DNA from: Ornithinimicrobium tianjinense
GTDB taxonomy: Bacteria; Actinomycetota; Actinomycetes; Actinomycetales; Dermatophilaceae
Assembly (NCBI RefSeq): GCF_014636495.1
Contig: NZ_BMEM01000001.1
Span: 294,195 to 358,194 of the forward strand
Length of the DNA stretch: 64,000 nt
Reading direction: 5' to 3'
Shown here: piece by piece, positions 38,163 to 60,286 of the stretch
Position numbering within the stretch: the stretch's first letter is position 1
Layout of the letters: every line of letters begins with the position of its first letter
Program-made: the position numbers and the translations under genes
Notes under the pieces: generated by a model
Told to the model about the DNA's origin: nothing
The model's database searches: none
The model's input: only the letters and a program-made list of their open reading frames with translations

Positions 38163-40667
38163 TCAGGGGGTGGGGGTGTCGTCGCCGGCCGTCCAGAGCA
38201 GGGCGCGGGCGACGAGGGCGTACTGGCCCTTGGGGTGGGCCCGGAAGAGCGGCTCGGAACCGAACAGCACCGTGCGCGCACCGGTGACCTCATCCTCGCC
38301 GCGGACCACCACGGCCTGACCTGCGGCGGCCTTGGGGCCGCCCGCTCCCTGGGCGTCGGCGCGCCAGTGGCCGCTGACGAGCGGGGCGGTGGCGTAGCTC
38401 TGGTCCGCGCTGACGCCGTCGCCGAGATCGGTGAACCACAGGGGGGAGTAGACGAAGGTGTGCGGTGTGGCGTCGCCGGTGACGGGTCCGCCCGCGTTCT
38501 CCACGGCCACCACGCCGTTGGCGTCGGAGCGCCCAGCAGCCGTGGTCACCTCCAGCAGGTCGAGCGCGTCGTTGACGGCCGCGCCGGCCCGGCCCCGTCC
38601 GACGACGCCGCCGCCGTCCGCGACGAACTCGCGCAGCTCGGCCCGGCCGCGCTCGTCGAGGTCGCGCCAGACCAGACCGCTGGACACGTAGAGCGTGTCC
38701 AGCCCGTCCAGCTCCAGCCCGTCGTTGAGCGCGCGGGTCGACACCGGCTCCACCGACAGCCCCATCTCGCCGAAGGCCCACAGCTCCTCGGCCGTGCCGG
38801 CCACCCCGATGGTCGGTTCGTCGAGCTCCTCGCCGGAGGCGCCTGCCGGCGCCGAGGCCAGCTCCACCCCCAGGTCAGCGACCACCTGGGTCGCCACCGC
38901 CCGCGCCGGCGCGGGCACGAGCACGCCACCGTCAGGCAGACGCTCCAGCGCCGCGCCCGCCTCGAGCAGCCGACCGAGCGCCCGGACGTCGGCCGGGTCC
39001 TCGAGCGAGAGCACCCACCCGGTGTCCGACGGCGCCAGCGAGCCGGCGGCCACGGCGTCAGCGACGAGGCCGCCCACCACCTGCAGCGGCTCACCCTCGG
39101 GCACGCTGACCACCGACGCTCCCCAGAGCAGCCCGTGGCTCCAGCCGGAGATGTCGTACATCGCGTCCACGCGCCCGGAGATGTCGGTCCCCGCGCCGAG
39201 GATGGTGTTGGCCAGGCCGCGTCGCGACTGGTGCAGGTCGACGACGTAGCTCCCGACCGGGTAGGCCGAGCCCGCGATCTGCGCGGGCTGGGTCAGCTGC
39301 CGCACCTGCACCCCGTTGGCGACCAGGTGGTCGACCAGTCGCGCGGCGGCGGGCGCCGACCGCTGCGCGTCCCCGCTCGGTATGACGTACGCGCGCGGGT
39401 AGTCGGTGAGGTAGACGTCGTCCGGCCCGATCACCCCGAACAGGCCGTCCTTCACCGGACGCTGCTCCTCGCCGGCGACGCCCCGGCGGAAGATCTCCAC
39501 CTGGTCGGCGAGCAGCTCGTCGCGGTGCTCGTCGACGTAGGCCAGGGACGCCGTCATGGCTGCGTGGGCGATGTCGGTGTTGATCGCGGCCCGCCGGCGC
39601 AGCTCCGTCTCGGTGAGCGAGGAGTAGGAGGCGTTGTTGACCCGGAGCGGGATCTCGATCGTGTGCGCGACGGCGCCGTGGTAGGCGGCGTACTGCGGCG
39701 TGAAGATCGGCGGCCAGTCGTCCCAACCCTCGCTCCAGTCGCGCAGCGGGATCTGCGGGGGCTCGACACCGTCCTCCGCGCCGTAGCCGAGGTCGAGGAT
39801 GGCCTGCTCGATGCCGAGCGCGTTGGGGTAGGCGTGCTTGACGAACAGGTCGTACTCGTAGTTCTCGCCGTGCGGCGGCGTGGTCGGCTCCACGAGCGTG
39901 CCGTTGACATAGCCGTGCAGGTCGAGCATGAGCACGGGCTGGATGCGCGCGATCGCGTCGCGCACTGCGACGGTCTCCGGCTGGGTCGCCGTGATGAGGT
40001 CGCGGTTGAGGTCGAAGCCCGCGCTGTTGCGGCGGGCGTTGTCGTGGCGGCCGTCGGGGTTCATCGACACGACCAGGTGGATGCGCGTCCGTTCGAGCAT
40101 CTCGGCCACGGCCGGGTCGTCGGAGGCTGCGTAGTCCTCGATGAGCCGCAGCGCCGCGTCGGTGCCCTCGAACTCGTTGCCGTGGATGTTGGCGTTGAGG
40201 AAGACCGGCGTCTTGTAGGCGCGGGCCAGCCCCGCATCCCTGGCCGCCTGCGCGGGCCGGGTGGCGATGCGGTCGCGCATCGTCGCCTGCTGCCGAGCCT
40301 GCGCCACGCTCTCCGGCGCCGTCAGGGTGACCATCACCACCTGCCTCCCTGTGGCGGTGGTCGCCAGGACCTCGGCGGAGACGCGGTCGGAGGCGCGCTG
40401 CGCGGCGTTGAGACGCCGGGCGATGTCGTGGTATGCCGCGAGGCCGAGTCTCAGGGCGGCGTCCCCCTCGTCGACGGCCGGCTCGACGAGGACGGTCTGG
40501 CGGGGGTACCCCCGGTCGACGCCGGCAGCCGGCCCGGTCTGCGCGGCGGGGGTCACCGGGTCGGCCCCGGCCACGATCGCGCTCCCGGCCCCCGTCAGCC
40601 CGAGGACGCCCGCGAGGAGCACGACCGACCAGCGGGCACGCAGCGGTGAGGGGGCGAGACGCGCCAT
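38163..40667 (-). CDS. Secreted M14-family zinc carboxypeptidase
   Basis: An 834-aa secreted enzyme. The signal peptide covers about residues 1-35 (RWSVVLLAGVLGLTGAGSAIVAGA). The M14 domain follows: zinc ligands in NANIHGNEFEG (His, Glu) and a downstream His in MLDLHGY, with the substrate-binding MNPDGRHDNARRN...FDLNRD. The remaining ~450 residues include a glutamine-amidotransferase-like fold (YVSSGLVWRDLDERGRAELREFVADGGGVVG). The ATG at 40667 has AAGGAG 7 nt upstream. It is divergent from the amidohydrolase operon and convergent with the tRNA. Confidence 0.88.
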   Translation of the reverse strand: MARLAPSPLRARWSVVLLAGVLGLTGAGSAIVAGADPVTPAAQTGPAAGVDRGYPRQTVLVEPAVDEGDAALRLGLAAYHDIARRLNAAQRASDRVSAEVLATTATGRQVVMVTLTAPESVAQARQQATMRDRIATRPAQAARDAGLARAYKTPVFLNANIHGNEFEGTDAALRLIEDYAASDDPAVAEMLERTRIHLVVSMNPDGRHDNARRNSAGFDLNRDLITATQPETVAVRDAIARIQPVLMLDLHGYVNGTLVEPTTPPHGENYEYDLFVKHAYPNALGIEQAILDLGYGAEDGVEPPQIPLRDWSEGWDDWPPIFTPQYAAYHGAVAHTIEIPLRVNNASYSSLTETELRRRAAINTDIAHAAMTASLAYVDEHRDELLADQVEIFRRGVAGEEQRPVKDGLFGVIGPDDVYLTDYPRAYVIPSGDAQRSAPAAARLVDHLVANGVQVRQLTQPAQIAGSAYPVGSYVVDLHQSRRGLANTILGAGTDISGRVDAMYDISGWSHGLLWGASVVSVPEGEPLQVVGGLVADAVAAGSLAPSDTGWVLSLEDPADVRALGRLLEAGAALERLPDGGVLVPAPARAVATQVVADLGVELASAPAGASGEELDEPTIGVAGTAEELWAFGEMGLSVEPVSTRALNDGLELDGLDTLYVSSGLVWRDLDERGRAELREFVADGGGVVGRGRAGAAVNDALDLLEVTTAAGRSDANGVVAVENAGGPVTGDATPHTFVYSPLWFTDLGDGVSADQSYATAPLVSGHWRADAQGAGGPKAAAGQAVVVRGEDEVTGARTVLFGSEPLFRAHPKGQYALVARALLWTAGDDTPTP

Positions 40668-40775
40668 ACCCTCACTCCTTCGCATCGGGGACCCCCCGAG
40701 CCTAACCGGCGCCCCCGACAAACGGAATATCCGCCCGGGGACGACCCTCCGGGTGCCTTCGGCCCCGCCGTCGGA

Positions 40776-40781
40776 TAGACA
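40776..40781 (+). promoter_or_regulatory. -10 box of the 40789 operon (leaderless)
   Basis: TAGACA ends 7 nt before the ATG at 40789, with no ribosome binding site. Confidence 0.5.
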
Positions 40782-40788
40782 AGAGCCC

Positions 40789-41577
40789 ATGTCATCGACT
40801 CACGACGTCCAGGGCGACTGGTCCGGTCAGCTCGTCGCTGCCGCGGTCCACGCCGGCCACGAGCTGCGCCCCGAGATCGCTGCCGCGATGGTCCTCGACG
40901 AGCAGGTGCGCCTGCGGGAGGAGGACCCCTTCACCGACCTGATCGGGGCCGCGGCCCCGGCCCGCATCGTGGCGCGCCGTTCCCGCTTCGAGGTCGACCT
41001 CAACCGTCCCCGCGACACCGCGGTCTACCGGGAGCCCGAGGACTGCTGGGGGCTCGAGGTATGGCGCGACTCACCCCTGGACGACGCGCTCGTCGAGGGG
41101 AGCCTGGCTGTCTACGACGCCTTCTACGCCGACCTGGGCCGGCGGCTGGACGAGGTGGCGGCGCGCGGGCCGTTCGTCGTCTATGACGTGCACTCGTACA
41201 ACCACCGCCGAGACGACCCCGACGGGGGCGAGGCCGACGTGGACGGCAACCCGGAGGTCAACCTCGGCACCGGCACGGTCGACCCGGTCTTCGCGCCGGT
41301 GGTCGCGACCTTCACGGAGTCCCTGCAGGCGCAGCAGGTGCAGGGCCACCACCTCGACGTGCGGGAGAACGTGAAGTTCAAGGGCCGCGCCCTGTCCTGG
41401 TGGGTCCACGAGCGCTACGCCGGGGTGGGCGTCTGCCTGGCCCTGGAGTTCAAGAAGACCTTCATGGACGAGTGGACGGGTGAGCCCGACCCCCAGCACG
41501 TGCAGGAGCTGCGCGACGCGCTCGCGGCCACCCACGCCCCGGTCCTGGAGGCGCTGCGCGGTCTGGAGCGGGGATGA
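40789..41577 (+). CDS. N-formylglutamate amidohydrolase-family protein
   Basis: A 262-aa protein of the N-formylglutamate amidohydrolase (HutG/DUF) family of zinc amidohydrolases. Conserved segments are AAAVHAGHELRPEIA near residue 20, RSRFEVDLNRPRDTAVY, the metal-binding VVYDVHSYNHRR and the C-terminal LALEFKKTFMDEWTGEP. No histidine-degradation genes are nearby, so a role in Hut catabolism is unlikely. It is the first of three genes overlapping by 4 bp each with the metallopeptidase and the ATP-grasp ligase, pointing to an amide or peptide substrate made in this operon. Confidence 0.85.
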   Translation: MSSTHDVQGDWSGQLVAAAVHAGHELRPEIAAAMVLDEQVRLREEDPFTDLIGAAAPARIVARRSRFEVDLNRPRDTAVYREPEDCWGLEVWRDSPLDDALVEGSLAVYDAFYADLGRRLDEVAARGPFVVYDVHSYNHRRDDPDGGEADVDGNPEVNLGTGTVDPVFAPVVATFTESLQAQQVQGHHLDVRENVKFKGRALSWWVHERYAGVGVCLALEFKKTFMDEWTGEPDPQHVQELRDALAATHAPVLEALRGLERG

Positions 41578-42749
41578 CCACGCAGCCCCACGCCGCCCTG
41601 GGGGCCGAGGACCTCGCGGTCGACCACACGCTGGCCATGCTCTCGGCAGGCGTCCGCTTCCTGCTCGACGTCACGCCGGTGGACGCGGACGAGCACCGGG
41701 CGGACTTCCTGGCGGGCCTCGTCGACGAGCCGGTCTTCGCCTACCGCGAGCTGGACGCTGACCCGGCCGTCTTCGGCGCCCAGCTGGACCACGTCGCCCT
41801 CGACCGCGTGGCCGACCCGACGCTGGGCGACCTGCTGCGCGGCAAGCACCGCGAGATGCGGCTGCAGCTGGAGATGCTCCGGGCGCGTGGCACCGACGAC
41901 TTCCGGCAGCTGTCGGTCGAGCTCTACGGCGCGGTCGGGCCCACCCTGCGTGAGCAGGCCGAGGACCTCGTCGCCCGGCTCGACGTGGGCGGCCAGCCCG
42001 GCGGGTCGCTGACCGCCGAGGAGTTCCTGGTGCTGGCCGACGCCGAGATCGCGGCCTACCGCGAGGAGGACCCGGACGCCGGCATCCATGCCGAGGTCCG
42101 GCCCGACGTCAGCGGTGTGCTCGTGGAGGGCAGCACCCTGCTCATCAGCGAGTCCTCCACGATCGCGGAGGTCCGGGCGCACGCGCTTCTGCAGCACGAG
42201 GTCGGCACCCACCTGGTCACGCAGGTCAACGGCGCCGGGCAGCCGGTCAGGACGCTCGGTGAGGGCCTGGCCGGTTACGACGAGACCCAGGAAGGCCTCG
42301 CGGTCCTGGCCGAGATCGGCTCCGGCGGCCTGACGCCCTTCCGGCTGCGCCAGCTCGCCGTGCGGGTGCTCACCGTGCACCGGATGCTCGCCGGTGCCTC
42401 CTTCCGCGAGGCGCACACGGCGCTGGTGGACGAGGGCGTGCCCGCGGGCACGGCATACACGACCGTCATGCGGGTCTATCGCTCCGGCGGGCTGACCAAG
42501 GACGCGATCTACCTGCGCGGCCTCCTCGACCTGCGTGAGCACCTCGCCGCCGGCGGAGGCCTCGACCTGTTCTTCCTCGGCAAGTTCGCGCTGCGCGACC
42601 TGCCTCTGGTGCAGGATCTTCACGACCGCGGCATCCTCCGGCCGCCCCGGCTCACCCCCCGGTGGCTGCGCGATCCTCGCGCCGTCACCCGCCTCGCCGA
42701 GGTCGCTCGCACCGACGACCTCACCACCCTCACGAAAGGCCTGGGATGA
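41574..42749 (+). CDS. DUF1704 (QEGLA-motif) predicted zinc metallopeptidase
   Basis: A 391-aa protein of the DUF1704 family, annotated in bacteria as flavohemoglobin expression-modulating QEGLA motif protein. The zinc site HEVGTH is at residues 208-213 and the QEGLA motif with the third ligand Glu 240 at 239-243; all key residues are present. Eukaryotic relatives (MATCAP/TMCP) are tubulin tyrosine carboxypeptidases, so a C-terminal peptidase activity is a reasonable inference. It has no signal peptide and acts in the cytoplasm. It overlaps both neighbours by 4 bp. Confidence 0.9.
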   Translation: MTTQPHAALGAEDLAVDHTLAMLSAGVRFLLDVTPVDADEHRADFLAGLVDEPVFAYRELDADPAVFGAQLDHVALDRVADPTLGDLLRGKHREMRLQLEMLRARGTDDFRQLSVELYGAVGPTLREQAEDLVARLDVGGQPGGSLTAEEFLVLADAEIAAYREEDPDAGIHAEVRPDVSGVLVEGSTLLISESSTIAEVRAHALLQHEVGTHLVTQVNGAGQPVRTLGEGLAGYDETQEGLAVLAEIGSGGLTPFRLRQLAVRVLTVHRMLAGASFREAHTALVDEGVPAGTAYTTVMRVYRSGGLTKDAIYLRGLLDLREHLAAGGGLDLFFLGKFALRDLPLVQDLHDRGILRPPRLTPRWLRDPRAVTRLAEVARTDDLTTLTKGLG

Positions 42750-43789
42750 AGATCGCCTTCGTCGTCAACGACGTCATGACCGAGAAGCCCGTCTACACGA
42801 CCACCCGGCTGGCGATGACGGCCGCCAACATGGGCCACGAGGCGTGGGTGATGGGGATGGGCGACTTCGGCTACGAGCCGGACGGCTCGCTCAGCGCCCG
42901 CGCCCGGGCGGGCGGGGGCAAGACCTACCGCTCGCTCGAGCGCTACCTCGAGGACGTCCAGAAGCCGGAGGAGGACGAGCAGATCCCGCTCAACGAGTTC
43001 GACGTGGTGATGCTCCGCAGCGACCCCGCCGACGACGCGGACGGTGCGGCCTGGGCCAACAATGCCCTCGTCGGCTTCGGCGACCTCATCGCCTCGGGCG
43101 GCGTCCTGGTGGTCAACGACCCCGGCAGCCTGGCGACCGCACTGTCGAAGGCCTACTTCCAGCACTTCCCGGAGGCGGTGCGGCCCCGGACGCTCATCTC
43201 CCGCGACGCCACGAGGATCGAGGCGTTCGTGGAGGAGCTGAAGGGCAAGGCCGTGCTCAAGCCGCTCCAGGGCTCGGGCGGCTCCGGCGTCTTCATGGTC
43301 AACTCCGCGGAGTCGCCCAACCTCAACCAGATCATCGAGGCGATCGCCCGGGACGGCTACGTCGTGGTGCAGGAGTACCTCCCGCAGGCCAAGGAGGGTG
43401 ACGTGCGGATGTTCGTGATGAACGGCCGGCCCCTGACGAGGGACGGGAAGTACGCAGCCTTCCGGCGCCGGAGCACCAGCGCCGACATCCGCTCCAACAT
43501 GTCGGCCGGCGGCAAGGCCGTCGCGGTGGAGGTCACCGACGAGATGCTCGGGCTCGTCGACGCGGTCCGTCCCAAGCTGGTCGCGGACGGGATGTTCCTG
43601 GTGGGCCTCGACATCGTGGGCGACAAGCTCATGGAGGTCAACGTCTTCAGCCCGGGCGGGCTCGGCAGCTGCCAGCAGCTCTACGGCGTGGACTTCGCCC
43701 CGGCCGTCATCGAGGACCTGGAGCACAAGGTGGCGATGAGGGCGCACTACGGCCGCGAGCTGGCCAACGTCTCGCTCGCCACGCTGTGA
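42746..43789 (+). CDS. ATP-grasp ligase, glutathione-synthetase-like
   Basis: A 347-aa ATP-grasp enzyme related to GshB. The N-terminal pre-ATP-grasp domain starts MKIAFVVNDVMTEKPVYTTTRL; the ATP-grasp part has the lysine and flexible loop KAVLKPLQGSGGSGVFMV, VVVQEYLPQAKEGDVRMFV and the Mg-binding LDIVGDKLMEVNVFSPGG. The family couples a carboxylate to an amine through an acyl phosphate. Actinobacteria with mycothiol (mca is present at 59252) normally do not make glutathione, so the product is probably not glutathione. It is the last gene of the three-gene operon. Confidence 0.88.
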   Translation: MKIAFVVNDVMTEKPVYTTTRLAMTAANMGHEAWVMGMGDFGYEPDGSLSARARAGGGKTYRSLERYLEDVQKPEEDEQIPLNEFDVVMLRSDPADDADGAAWANNALVGFGDLIASGGVLVVNDPGSLATALSKAYFQHFPEAVRPRTLISRDATRIEAFVEELKGKAVLKPLQGSGGSGVFMVNSAESPNLNQIIEAIARDGYVVVQEYLPQAKEGDVRMFVMNGRPLTRDGKYAAFRRRSTSADIRSNMSAGGKAVAVEVTDEMLGLVDAVRPKLVADGMFLVGLDIVGDKLMEVNVFSPGGLGSCQQLYGVDFAPAVIEDLEHKVAMRAHYGRELANVSLATL

Positions 43790-43790
43790 G

Positions 43791-43812
43791 CCGGGGCGTC
43801 GGAATCCCCCGG
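43791..43812 (+). terminator. Possible terminator after the ATP-grasp gene
   Basis: A CCGGGG/CCCCGG stem of 6 bp with a 10-nt loop immediately after the stop codon. Confidence 0.4.
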
Positions 43813-43827
43813 GCGGCTCGGTCGTTC

Positions 43828-43833
43828 TAGGGT
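43828..43833 (+). promoter_or_regulatory. -10 box of the Bax-inhibitor-1 gene
   Basis: TAGGGT at 43828-43833, about 55 nt before the ATG; transcription should start near 43840. Confidence 0.5.
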
Positions 43834-43842
43834 GAGAAGTGA

Positions 43843-43867
43843 CACGCGGGGGGACTTTCCCCGCGTG
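43843..43867 (+). promoter_or_regulatory. Hairpin at the 5' end of the Bax-inhibitor-1 mRNA
   Basis: A perfect 9-bp stem CACGCGGGG/CCCCGCGTG with a 7-nt loop begins within a few nucleotides of the expected transcription start. It could protect the 5' end of the mRNA. It is followed by the ribosome binding site GGAGG before the ATG at 43889. Confidence 0.55.
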
Positions 43868-43888
43868 CCGAACGACATCGGAGGTCCC

Positions 43889-44767
43889 ATGGCCGTCAAC
43901 CCGGTCTTCAACCGCATCGACAAGGAGGCGTCGCAGGGCGGCTACGCCGGCTTCGGCTCGCAGCCGAGCGGCTACGCGCCCCCGCAGGGCGCCCCCACCA
44001 TCCCCGCCGGCTACCAGCCCGGTCCCAGCGAGACGCTGACCGACCAGCAGCTGCGCGACATGTACGCCTCGGCGCCCGCCGGGCCCGTCGAGACGGGTCG
44101 CCTGACCCTCGACGACGTGGTCGTGAAGTCGCTGTTCCTGTTCGGCATCCTGCTCGCCGCCACCGCCGTCTCCTGGTTCATGGTCGGCGCCCAGCCGGGC
44201 CTGGCCACGCCGTTCTGGCTGGGCGGCATGGTCGGCTCGCTCGTGCTGAGCTTCGTCATCGGCTTCTCCAAGAAGGTCAACGTCCCGCTCATCGTGGTGC
44301 ACGCGGTGCTGCAGGGCCTGTTCCTCGGAGCGATCAGCGTCACCTTCAACCAGATCTACGACGGCGTCGTGACGACCGCCGTGGTCGCCACCCTGGCCAC
44401 CTTCGTCGGGATGTTCGTCGGCTGGAAGATGGGCTTCATCAAGGTCACCAGCCGCACCCGCCGGATCTTCGGCATGGTGGCGATGGGCTACCTCGTCTTC
44501 CTCCTCATCAACCTCGCCGCCTCGTTCATGGGCTTCGGCGACGGCTGGGGCATCTACGGTAGCCAGTTCGGTTGGCTGATCGCCCTGCTCGGCGTGGCGC
44601 TCGCGTCGTACTCGCTGGCCGTCGACTTCGACTCGATCGACGGTGCGGTCCGCGCCGGCGCGCCGCAGAAGTACTCGTGGCTGCTCGGCCACGGTCTCGT
44701 CGCGAGCCTGGTGTGGCTGTACATCGAGTTCCTGCGGCTCTTCGCGATCCTGCAGAGCAACGACTGA
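43889..44767 (+). CDS. Bax inhibitor-1/YccA-family membrane protein
   Basis: A 292-aa integral membrane protein. A cytoplasmic N-terminus of about 80 residues rich in Gly, Pro and Tyr (GYAGFGSQPSGYAPP) precedes seven membrane helices. The BI-1 signature is seen near the C-terminus (VALASYSLAVDFDSIDGAVRAGAPQKYSWLLGHGLVASLVWLYIEFLRLFAIL), with the aspartates of the calcium-leak pore. Bacterial members are pH-sensitive calcium leak channels. GGAGG precedes the ATG. The next gene overlaps its stop by one base. Confidence 0.93.
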   Translation: MAVNPVFNRIDKEASQGGYAGFGSQPSGYAPPQGAPTIPAGYQPGPSETLTDQQLRDMYASAPAGPVETGRLTLDDVVVKSLFLFGILLAATAVSWFMVGAQPGLATPFWLGGMVGSLVLSFVIGFSKKVNVPLIVVHAVLQGLFLGAISVTFNQIYDGVVTTAVVATLATFVGMFVGWKMGFIKVTSRTRRIFGMVAMGYLVFLLINLAASFMGFGDGWGIYGSQFGWLIALLGVALASYSLAVDFDSIDGAVRAGAPQKYSWLLGHGLVASLVWLYIEFLRLFAILQSND

Positions 44768-59251: not shown

Positions 59252-60286
59252 ATGCAGGACCTCCGGCTGATGGCCGTCCACGCCCACCCCGACGACGAGT
59301 CGTCGAAGGGGGCGGCGACGAGCGCGCGCTACGTCGCCGAGGGCGTCTCGGTGCGCGTCGTGTCCTGCACGGGTGGCGAGCGCGGCGACGTGCTCAACGA
59401 GCGGCTCAAGCACGACCCGCACATCGAGCGCGACATCGCCAACGTGCGGCGCGCGGAGATGGCCCGGGCCGCGCAGATCCTCGGGGTCAGCCACACCTGG
59501 CTCGGCTTCACCGACTCCGGGCTGCCGGAGGGCGACCCCCTGCCGCCGCTGCCGGACGGCTGCTTCGCGCTGGAGCCCCTGGACGTCACGACGGAGGCGC
59601 TCGTGCGGGTGATCCGCGAGTTTCGCCCGCACGTGCTCACCACCTACGACGAGAACGGCGGCTACCCCCACCCTGACCACGTGATGACGCACGTGGTGAC
59701 GATGTCGGCTTTCCGCGCCGCGGGCGACCCCGCGGCCTACCCGCACGCCGGGGCGCCGTGGCAGCCGTTGAAGGTCTACTACAACGCGAGGAACCCCGAC
59801 CGCATGGAGCGGCTCGACGAGGCCATGGTCCGCGCCGGGCTCGAACCCGCCTACGCCGACTGGCGCAAGCACCTCGCCGGTCAGCCGCGTCGCACGATCA
59901 CCACGCAGATCCGGTGCGGCGAGCACTTCCCCGCCCGCGACGACGCTCTCCGGGCGCACGCCACGCAGGTCGACCCGGACAGCAGCTGGTTCGCCGTCCC
60001 GCTGGAGCTGCAGGTGCAGGAGTGGCCGTTCGAGGAGTTCGAGCTCGCCGCCGCGCTCGTGCCCGTGGAGCTGCCCGAGGACGACCTGTTCGCGGGGCTG
60101 CGCTCCCTCCCGGACCTGGACGCGGTATGCCGTCGCGCACCTGTGCGCGACGACGCGGGCGAGCTGGTGCTCGCCTACGCGACGACGCCGCCCGCGAGCG
60201 GCCCGGAGGCACGGTCGACCGCGGCGCAGGACGCCGACGGCGACGGCCGCGACGACATGCGCGAGGAAGAGGGACACAGCGGATGA
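59252..60286 (+). CDS. mca: Mycothiol S-conjugate amidase
   Basis: A 344-aa zinc amidase that cleaves mycothiol-toxin conjugates to a mercapturic acid and GlcN-Ins. The zinc motif AHPDDESSKG is at residues 11-20, the third ligand is in NGGYPHPDHVMTH, and SCTGGERGDVLN is a family signature. It distinguishes from MshB by length and by the C-terminal LELQVQEWPFEEFELA. A small protein gene overlaps its stop by 4 bp. Confidence 0.96.
   Translation: MQDLRLMAVHAHPDDESSKGAATSARYVAEGVSVRVVSCTGGERGDVLNERLKHDPHIERDIANVRRAEMARAAQILGVSHTWLGFTDSGLPEGDPLPPLPDGCFALEPLDVTTEALVRVIREFRPHVLTTYDENGGYPHPDHVMTHVVTMSAFRAAGDPAAYPHAGAPWQPLKVYYNARNPDRMERLDEAMVRAGLEPAYADWRKHLAGQPRRTITTQIRCGEHFPARDDALRAHATQVDPDSSWFAVPLELQVQEWPFEEFELAAALVPVELPEDDLFAGLRSLPDLDAVCRRAPVRDDAGELVLAYATTPPASGPEARSTAAQDADGDGRDDMREEEGHSG

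Follow-up and report, generated by a model that had tools for sequence, protein, structure and literature searches.

This work concerns a three-gene operon of the actinomycete Ornithinimicrobium tianjinense, located in a window of 64,000 nucleotides (contig NZ_BMEM01000001.1, positions 294,195 to 358,194; the window is the whole stretch of DNA that was analyzed, and all coordinates below are counted within it). Gene A (40789..41577, + strand, 262 amino acids) encodes a hydrolase of the FGase (N-formylglutamate amidohydrolase) family, gene B (41574..42749, +, 391 amino acids) a predicted zinc metallopeptidase of the MATCAP/DUF1704 family in its short form, and gene C (42746..43789, +, 347 amino acids) a predicted GshB-like ATP-grasp amide ligase. 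All three start with ATG. At both the A/B and the B/C junction, the stop codon and the next start share the letters ATGA, and the 4-bp overlaps reported in a preliminary description of this DNA can thus be read directly from the starts and stops. The leaderless promoter proposed there found no such support: no sigma-70-like match occurs in 40500–44000 (0 matches; shuffled mean 0.1), the bases 5' of A's ATG show no evident strong ribosome site, and the sequence does not indicate where the transcript starts.

The central gene is a member of the MATCAP family (PF08014; 263 bits against a cut-off of 27). B carries the HExxxH motif and distal glutamate that define this family (H208, E209, H213, and E240), and its HEVGTH (residues 208–213; 42195..42212, +) and QEGLA motifs (residues 239–243; 42288..42302, +) are intact and placed as first described. 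A 15-row alignment shows no variation at H208, E209, H213, E240, G241, L242, or A243, and Q239 is almost invariant. When B is aligned with human KIAA0895L, E209 falls on the glutamate of HEIGTH and E240 on the EGLA glutamate of TEEGLA; these human glutamates are separated by 35 residues, the same spacing as that of E329 and E364 in TMCP2. PMC10499314 describes the TMCP2 mutants E329A and E364A and the TMCP1 mutant E281A as inactive, and the human MATCAP enzymes related to B as cleaving off C-terminal residues and also polyglutamate. We infer that E281 of TMCP1 is the HEIGTH glutamate and that, judged by spacing, the human mutant sites fit the two glutamates of B. The NCBIfam name of TIGR02421 (the QEGLA hypothetical equivalog) would instead make B a modulator of flavohemoglobin expression with incidental neighbors. 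That name favors such a role weakly; B scores 282.1 bits, below the cut-off of 338.65, and its neighbors are conserved across phyla (see below), so that we give this explanation next to no credence.

Gene A belongs to the FGase family (PF05013; 80 bits against a cut-off of 28.9), which has a carboxypeptidase-like fold. Its invariant residues over 48 rows include H21, E44, E45, D46, R66, D70, N72, R73, D133, H135, E220, and K223. No NCBIfam family matches A at E ≤ 0.01, and thus neither does the curated HutG N-formylglutamate deformylase family.

Gene C contains the GSH-S_ATP domain (PF02955; 168 bits against a cut-off of 23) and has K135, K172, R221, R249, N251, E297, and N299, among other residues, in common with four GshB rows. 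We take these residues to serve ATP and Mg, and the earlier claim that the ATP-grasp residues are intact holds for C. Given this resemblance, the operon could belong to ordinary glutathione metabolism, C being the glutathione synthetase and B and A degrading glutathione or its conjugates. C indeed exceeds the cut-off of the NF009110/PRK12458 subfamily, which is named glutathione synthetase (459 against 408 bits). In addition, a GCS2 match (some weak) is present in O. tianjinense and in 23 of 28 hand-picked genomes that carry a B–C pair, taken from the 80 named loci described below, so a source of gamma-glutamylcysteine is common. Against this reading, GCS2 was not found in the other 5 genomes (three of them metagenome-assembled), other families of gamma-glutamylcysteine ligase not having been sought.

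Likewise, C stays below the cut-offs of both glutathione-synthase equivalogs (207.9 against 272 bits for NF003573 and 195.2 against 299.05 for TIGR01380). Four of the 28 genomes encode, besides C, a true GshB that reaches the NF003573 cut-off (one has an internal stop), while 24 have none, two Kribbella genomes coming near it with 254 and 248 bits. As for the residues, at 21 positions with at least 90% conservation over 90 C rows, each of the four GshB rows either has another residue or lacks the position; the NVTSPT of GshB reads NVFSPG in C, and the N-terminal segment of C is also unlike that of GshB. Finally, the host encodes the mycothiol conjugate amidase Mca (59252–60283; 437 bits against a family cut-off of 277), in agreement with the mycothiol chemistry from which it had been argued that the product is probably not glutathione. 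The argument now gains support beyond mycothiol from the failed equivalog cut-offs, the coexisting GshB, and the altered positions, with the NF009110 match as the counterweight. Because C fails both equivalog cut-offs and a true GshB coexists with it in some genomes, C is probably not a glutathione synthase, as far as sequence comparison can tell. Glutathione synthesis was judged unlikely as the role of C on these same grounds, and a purely glutathione-related operon strikes us as very improbable. A search of phage records with C gave 20 matches, none covering 80% of the query.

To follow the operon across genomes, named bacterial and archaeal genomes were scanned with an alignment of B, and the best 80 of at least 515 confirmed relatives were kept as named loci (L numbers), a list biased toward close relatives of B. 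C was counted up to 2.5 kb downstream, and A up to 4.5 kb upstream on B's strand. C lies downstream of B in 77 of the 80 loci, and all three genes share one strand in 66. By record title, the loci span eight phyla: Actinomycetota, Planctomycetota, Bacteroidota, Calditrichota, Gemmatimonadota, Pseudomonadota, Verrucomicrobiota, and Myxococcota. Among the carriers of the triad is the laboratory strain Sinorhizobium meliloti 1021, which has it on pSymB (L097). Since the set recurs across phyla, it reflects more than chance. The preliminary description had suspected that a similar gene set occurs in other phyla and had named neighbors that are not conserved around DUF1704 homologs outside close relatives as evidence against its reading; the suspicion proved right, and with conservation in eight phyla the claim that the genes form a set withstands this test.

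No fourth conserved gene was seen among frames of at least 100 amino acids within about 6 kb of the 80 loci. The largest other cluster consists of ABC-transporter ATPases (13 of 80 loci, e.g., L069:8537-9655), which we take to be generic. This observation bears on the possibility that the genes are a small biosynthetic cluster and together make a cofactor or a peptide natural product, in which case B and A would be maturation enzymes rather than antagonists of C. Several planctomycete and other loci carry multiple C copies, sometimes with two copies of B (three C in L049, L051, L059, and L081; two in L052, L077, and L090), a hint of successive ligations, and a small precursor encoded by a frame below this minimum length could have been missed. 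Still, no other family recurs in the way that A and C do, and we regard a biosynthetic cluster as improbable.

To offset the bias of the named loci, genomes were also sampled evenly from four phyla. MATCAP was present in 9 of 246 actinomycete genomes, in 15 of 247 genomes from the phylum of Sphingobacterium micropteri, in 29 of 299 from that of Pelagibacterium luteolum, and in 38 of 199 from that of the planctomycete TBK1r (center genomes included). An order-level draw gave MATCAP in 8 of 248 genomes, every one in the window's own family. Loci were obtained for 9 of 9, 15 of 15, 30 of 34, and 30 of 46 matches in the four phylum draws, respectively. A MATCAP tree of 107 rows contains a 47-row clade that includes the window's B (clade 1; support 100/95), an 11-row clade (clade 2; 100/100), and a 42-row solo clade (100/100).

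Clade counts were made over 80 phylum-draw loci, excluding the center genomes (L001, L112, L147, and L169) and the order-level draw; a gene was counted as present from 100 bits upward, so that two solo loci with ATP-grasp matches of 60–65 bits count as lacking it. C lies within 1.5 kb of MATCAP in 23 of 24 loci of clade 1, in 6 of 9 of clade 2, and in none of the 41 solo or 6 other loci. The corresponding counts for A are 12 of 24 and 7 of 9, the flanks being 1.5 kb long and a missing A thus partly a flank effect. Clades 1 and 2 have the motif HE[VIL]G[TV]H, the solo clade mostly HEGxVH, HEAxxH, and similar forms. Conversely, an NF009110 match (E ≤ 1e-30) occurs in only 4 of the 246 actinomycete genomes, the window's own among them, and all 4 stand beside an operon-type B (2 of the 4 pass the NF009110 cut-off). 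In this draw, B and C therefore look like an obligate pair.

Two loci outside the operon clades may be mentioned here. In Pseudoalteromonas, a solo-type QEGLA gene (L101:6707-7987) lies near the glycine betaine genes betI-betB-betA. An actinomycete MATCAP with HEVGTH and EEGLA (L009:1453-2664, − strand) has no C and is the tree partner of the human fragment, a placement made unsure by long branches.

Gene fusions tie A to B. In Photobacterium (L099 and L100), a single frame contains both the FGase and the MATCAP domain, with C upstream, and the same A–B fusion occurs once in each of three phylum draws (L107, L146, and L174), whereas L104–L106 have separate genes in the order C-A-B. Clade 2 has a different order, C-A-B or C-AB, and the linkage is therefore not just inherited gene order. 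The claim that the three genes form a set is borne out by the conserved neighborhood, these fusions, and the reciprocal occurrence of B and C in one phylum draw.

B itself bears a further trace of A. An additional N-terminal domain, about 230 residues long, precedes its MATCAP core at 39 of the 80 named loci; the B of O. tianjinense lacks this domain, and three examples of it matched no Pfam family. Out of 50 B frames with at least 200 residues before the MATCAP core, 45 carry this A-homologous domain (e.g., L053:4238-6160). Its profile aligns with A in hhalign at P 3.5e-6 (probability 88%; controls: C P 0.09, B core P 0.38, reversed A P 0.09) and, at 21–39 bits, also matches the A part of each of the five fusions. 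When the two are aligned, the A segments H.GH, REEDP, SRFEVDLNR, and DxHSYN are not conserved in the domain. In our reading, it is probably an FGase domain that has lost its catalytic function; it would stem from an A–B fusion and perhaps serves as a docking platform.

A clue to when such genes are used comes from Photobacterium damselae. In PMC10308900, growth at 1% NaCl raises expression of the QEGLA gene A0J47_RS17025 27.5-fold, that of the next-numbered A0J47_RS17020 (annotated gshB) 38.4-fold, and that of RimK 52-fold; the authors treat A0J47_RS17020 as glutathione synthetase. Judging by how the genes are arranged in two congeners, we take A0J47_RS17025 to be an A–B fusion and A0J47_RS17020 to be C.

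An amide-forming ligase, a carboxypeptidase, and a coupled amidohydrolase are together best explained as a make-and-trim cycle. We lean, with somewhat better than even confidence, toward the operon encoding a ligase–carboxypeptidase module of this kind, with an amidohydrolase coupled to B, that acts on a small substrate. C would spend ATP on coupling an amino acid to a carboxylate group of the substrate (probably not gamma-glutamylcysteine), and B, as a zinc carboxypeptidase, would take off the C-terminal residue, most simply the one added by C. A, either tethered to B or docked, would act with it by hydrolyzing an amide of that molecule, either an N-acyl amide or one in a side chain. The common substrate would most likely be a small N-acyl amino acid or short peptide, of which the level or the tail would be adjusted. 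At least in some bacteria, this adjustment may follow a fall in outside salt, and a similar osmotic role is conceivable in O. tianjinense. All in all, A–B–C looks like a real and widespread reversible modification system.

The target need not be small, as the set could also act reversibly on a cellular protein, at its C-terminus or on the side chain of a glutamate, with C adding residues and B removing them, in the manner of TTL and MATCAP on tubulin or RimK and RimB on ribosomal S6. Two things point in this direction: the RimK–RimB precedent, and the place of B in PF08014, a family in which the human enzymes work on the tails of proteins and remove polyglutamate. Two proteins, and only these two, were compared for a matching signal. 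Among S6 C-termini from 20 genomes (12 with B–C and 8 without MATCAP), no feature follows the set, and S6 was dismissed as a general target. FtsZ tails, usable in 17 of the 20 genomes, are alike with and without it (left out were G501, without a match; G290, with a two-piece match; and G502, with a match close to a contig end). FtsZ was likewise rejected as a general tubulin-like target, given these tails and the planctomycete G501, which has the set and no TIGR00065 FtsZ match. Because the family of A is named for action on N-acyl amino acids and the S6 and FtsZ tails do not follow the set, a small substrate is favored over a protein; we rate a protein target as unlikely but not negligible.

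Several points weigh against a three-enzyme cycle on a small substrate. Besides the NF009110 match of C, these concern the constancy of A, the independence of the linkage counts, and the expression clue. A was not found upstream on B's strand in 13 of the 80 named loci. At least three of these (L034, L050, and L090) have less than 1 kb of upstream DNA, and in L082 A is on the other strand (L082:885-3845, where A and C both lie opposite to B). In seven others (L054, L057, L058, L063, L068, L071, and L093), A is absent with 6 kb in view and is therefore dispensable. We take B and C as the core pair; A is less constant and sometimes missing. The family assignment of A is remote, and a relative looked for in the PDB was not found. 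The Fisher p of 8e-18 overstates certainty, as the relatives are not independent samples. L009 and L180, which fall outside both clades, have the operon-type motif and no C. Finally, the low-salt response was recorded in a single species, which belongs to another phylum, and the equation of A0J47_RS17020 with C rests on an adjacent locus tag and congener order rather than on its own sequence.

Facing the operon is a divergent M14 zinc carboxypeptidase gene (38163–40790, − strand; PF00246, 74 bits), whose true start is probably further inside. It was considered as a fourth member and rejected: when its sequence was searched against the frames at all 80 named loci, close relatives stood beside the set only in two Ornithinimicrobium loci (L017 and L018). 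Distant M14 frames lie near L063 and L093, the latter with about 23% identity.

The findings tie a family known for the processing of animal tubulin to a widespread bacterial operon with a ligase partner, and they suggest that the gene names "glutathione synthetase" and "flavohemoglobin modulator" are wrong in this context. Salt downshift offers a concrete condition, in tractable hosts, for seeking the substrate. No characterization of the A–B–C set was found in the open-access literature; an earlier mention is possible, subscription papers being outside the scope. The ligases that act on tubulin are ATP-grasp enzymes. In a bolder picture, the set would be a reversible amino-acid tail system of many phyla, in which a ligase of the ATP-grasp type works with a MATCAP carboxypeptidase and a hydrolase of the FGase type, frequently accompanied by a degenerate docking domain; these would be the enzyme classes of the animal tubulin tail code. 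It would tag a protein or an abundant peptide upon osmotic downshift, and MATCAP would originally have been half of a bacterial write–erase pair. We find this picture improbable.

How does the set compare with known systems? A shares the PF05013 family with the N-formylglutamate amidohydrolase HutG, but it has no NCBIfam match at E ≤ 0.01 and is fused to or paired with MATCAP. With the tubulin carboxypeptidases MATCAP/TMCP (KIAA0895L and KIAA0895), B shares PF08014 and the conserved HE...H and EGLA residues; unlike them, it is encoded with a ligase, and to our knowledge tubulin is not expected in this host. The human fragment joins the actinomycete L009 on a long branch of the tree, not the operon clades, and a descent of human MATCAP from these clades is not supported. 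Similar kinds of reaction are combined in the animal metabolism of N-acetylaspartylglutamate, in which an ATP-grasp synthase, a zinc carboxypeptidase, and an aspartoacylase match the three reactions proposed here, although its carboxypeptidase and acylase belong to other families. Bacterial GshB, as set out above, has the domain family and key residues of C but is probably not its equivalent. A closer counterpart is RimK–RimB, where, according to PMC12239564 and PMC11957791, RimK adds glutamates and RimB removes them. The same papers describe the rlo operon of Pseudomonas, whose Rlo peptidases are required when the medium is hypoosmotic; an Rlo peptidase mutant is relieved of other defects by mutations in the ATP-grasp gene, rloC. 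In both cases an ATP-grasp ligase is encoded with an opposing peptidase, and fused RimK–RimB forms (RimBK) exist as well. RimB, however, is a retropepsin-like aspartic peptidase, a class outside which the PF08014 and PF05013 hydrolases of the operon fall, and C remains below the cut-off of the RimK family (TIGR00768; 72 against 143.4 bits). RimK–RimB is therefore the nearest working model in the sense of function by analogy: A–B–C may work likewise, with unrelated hydrolases.

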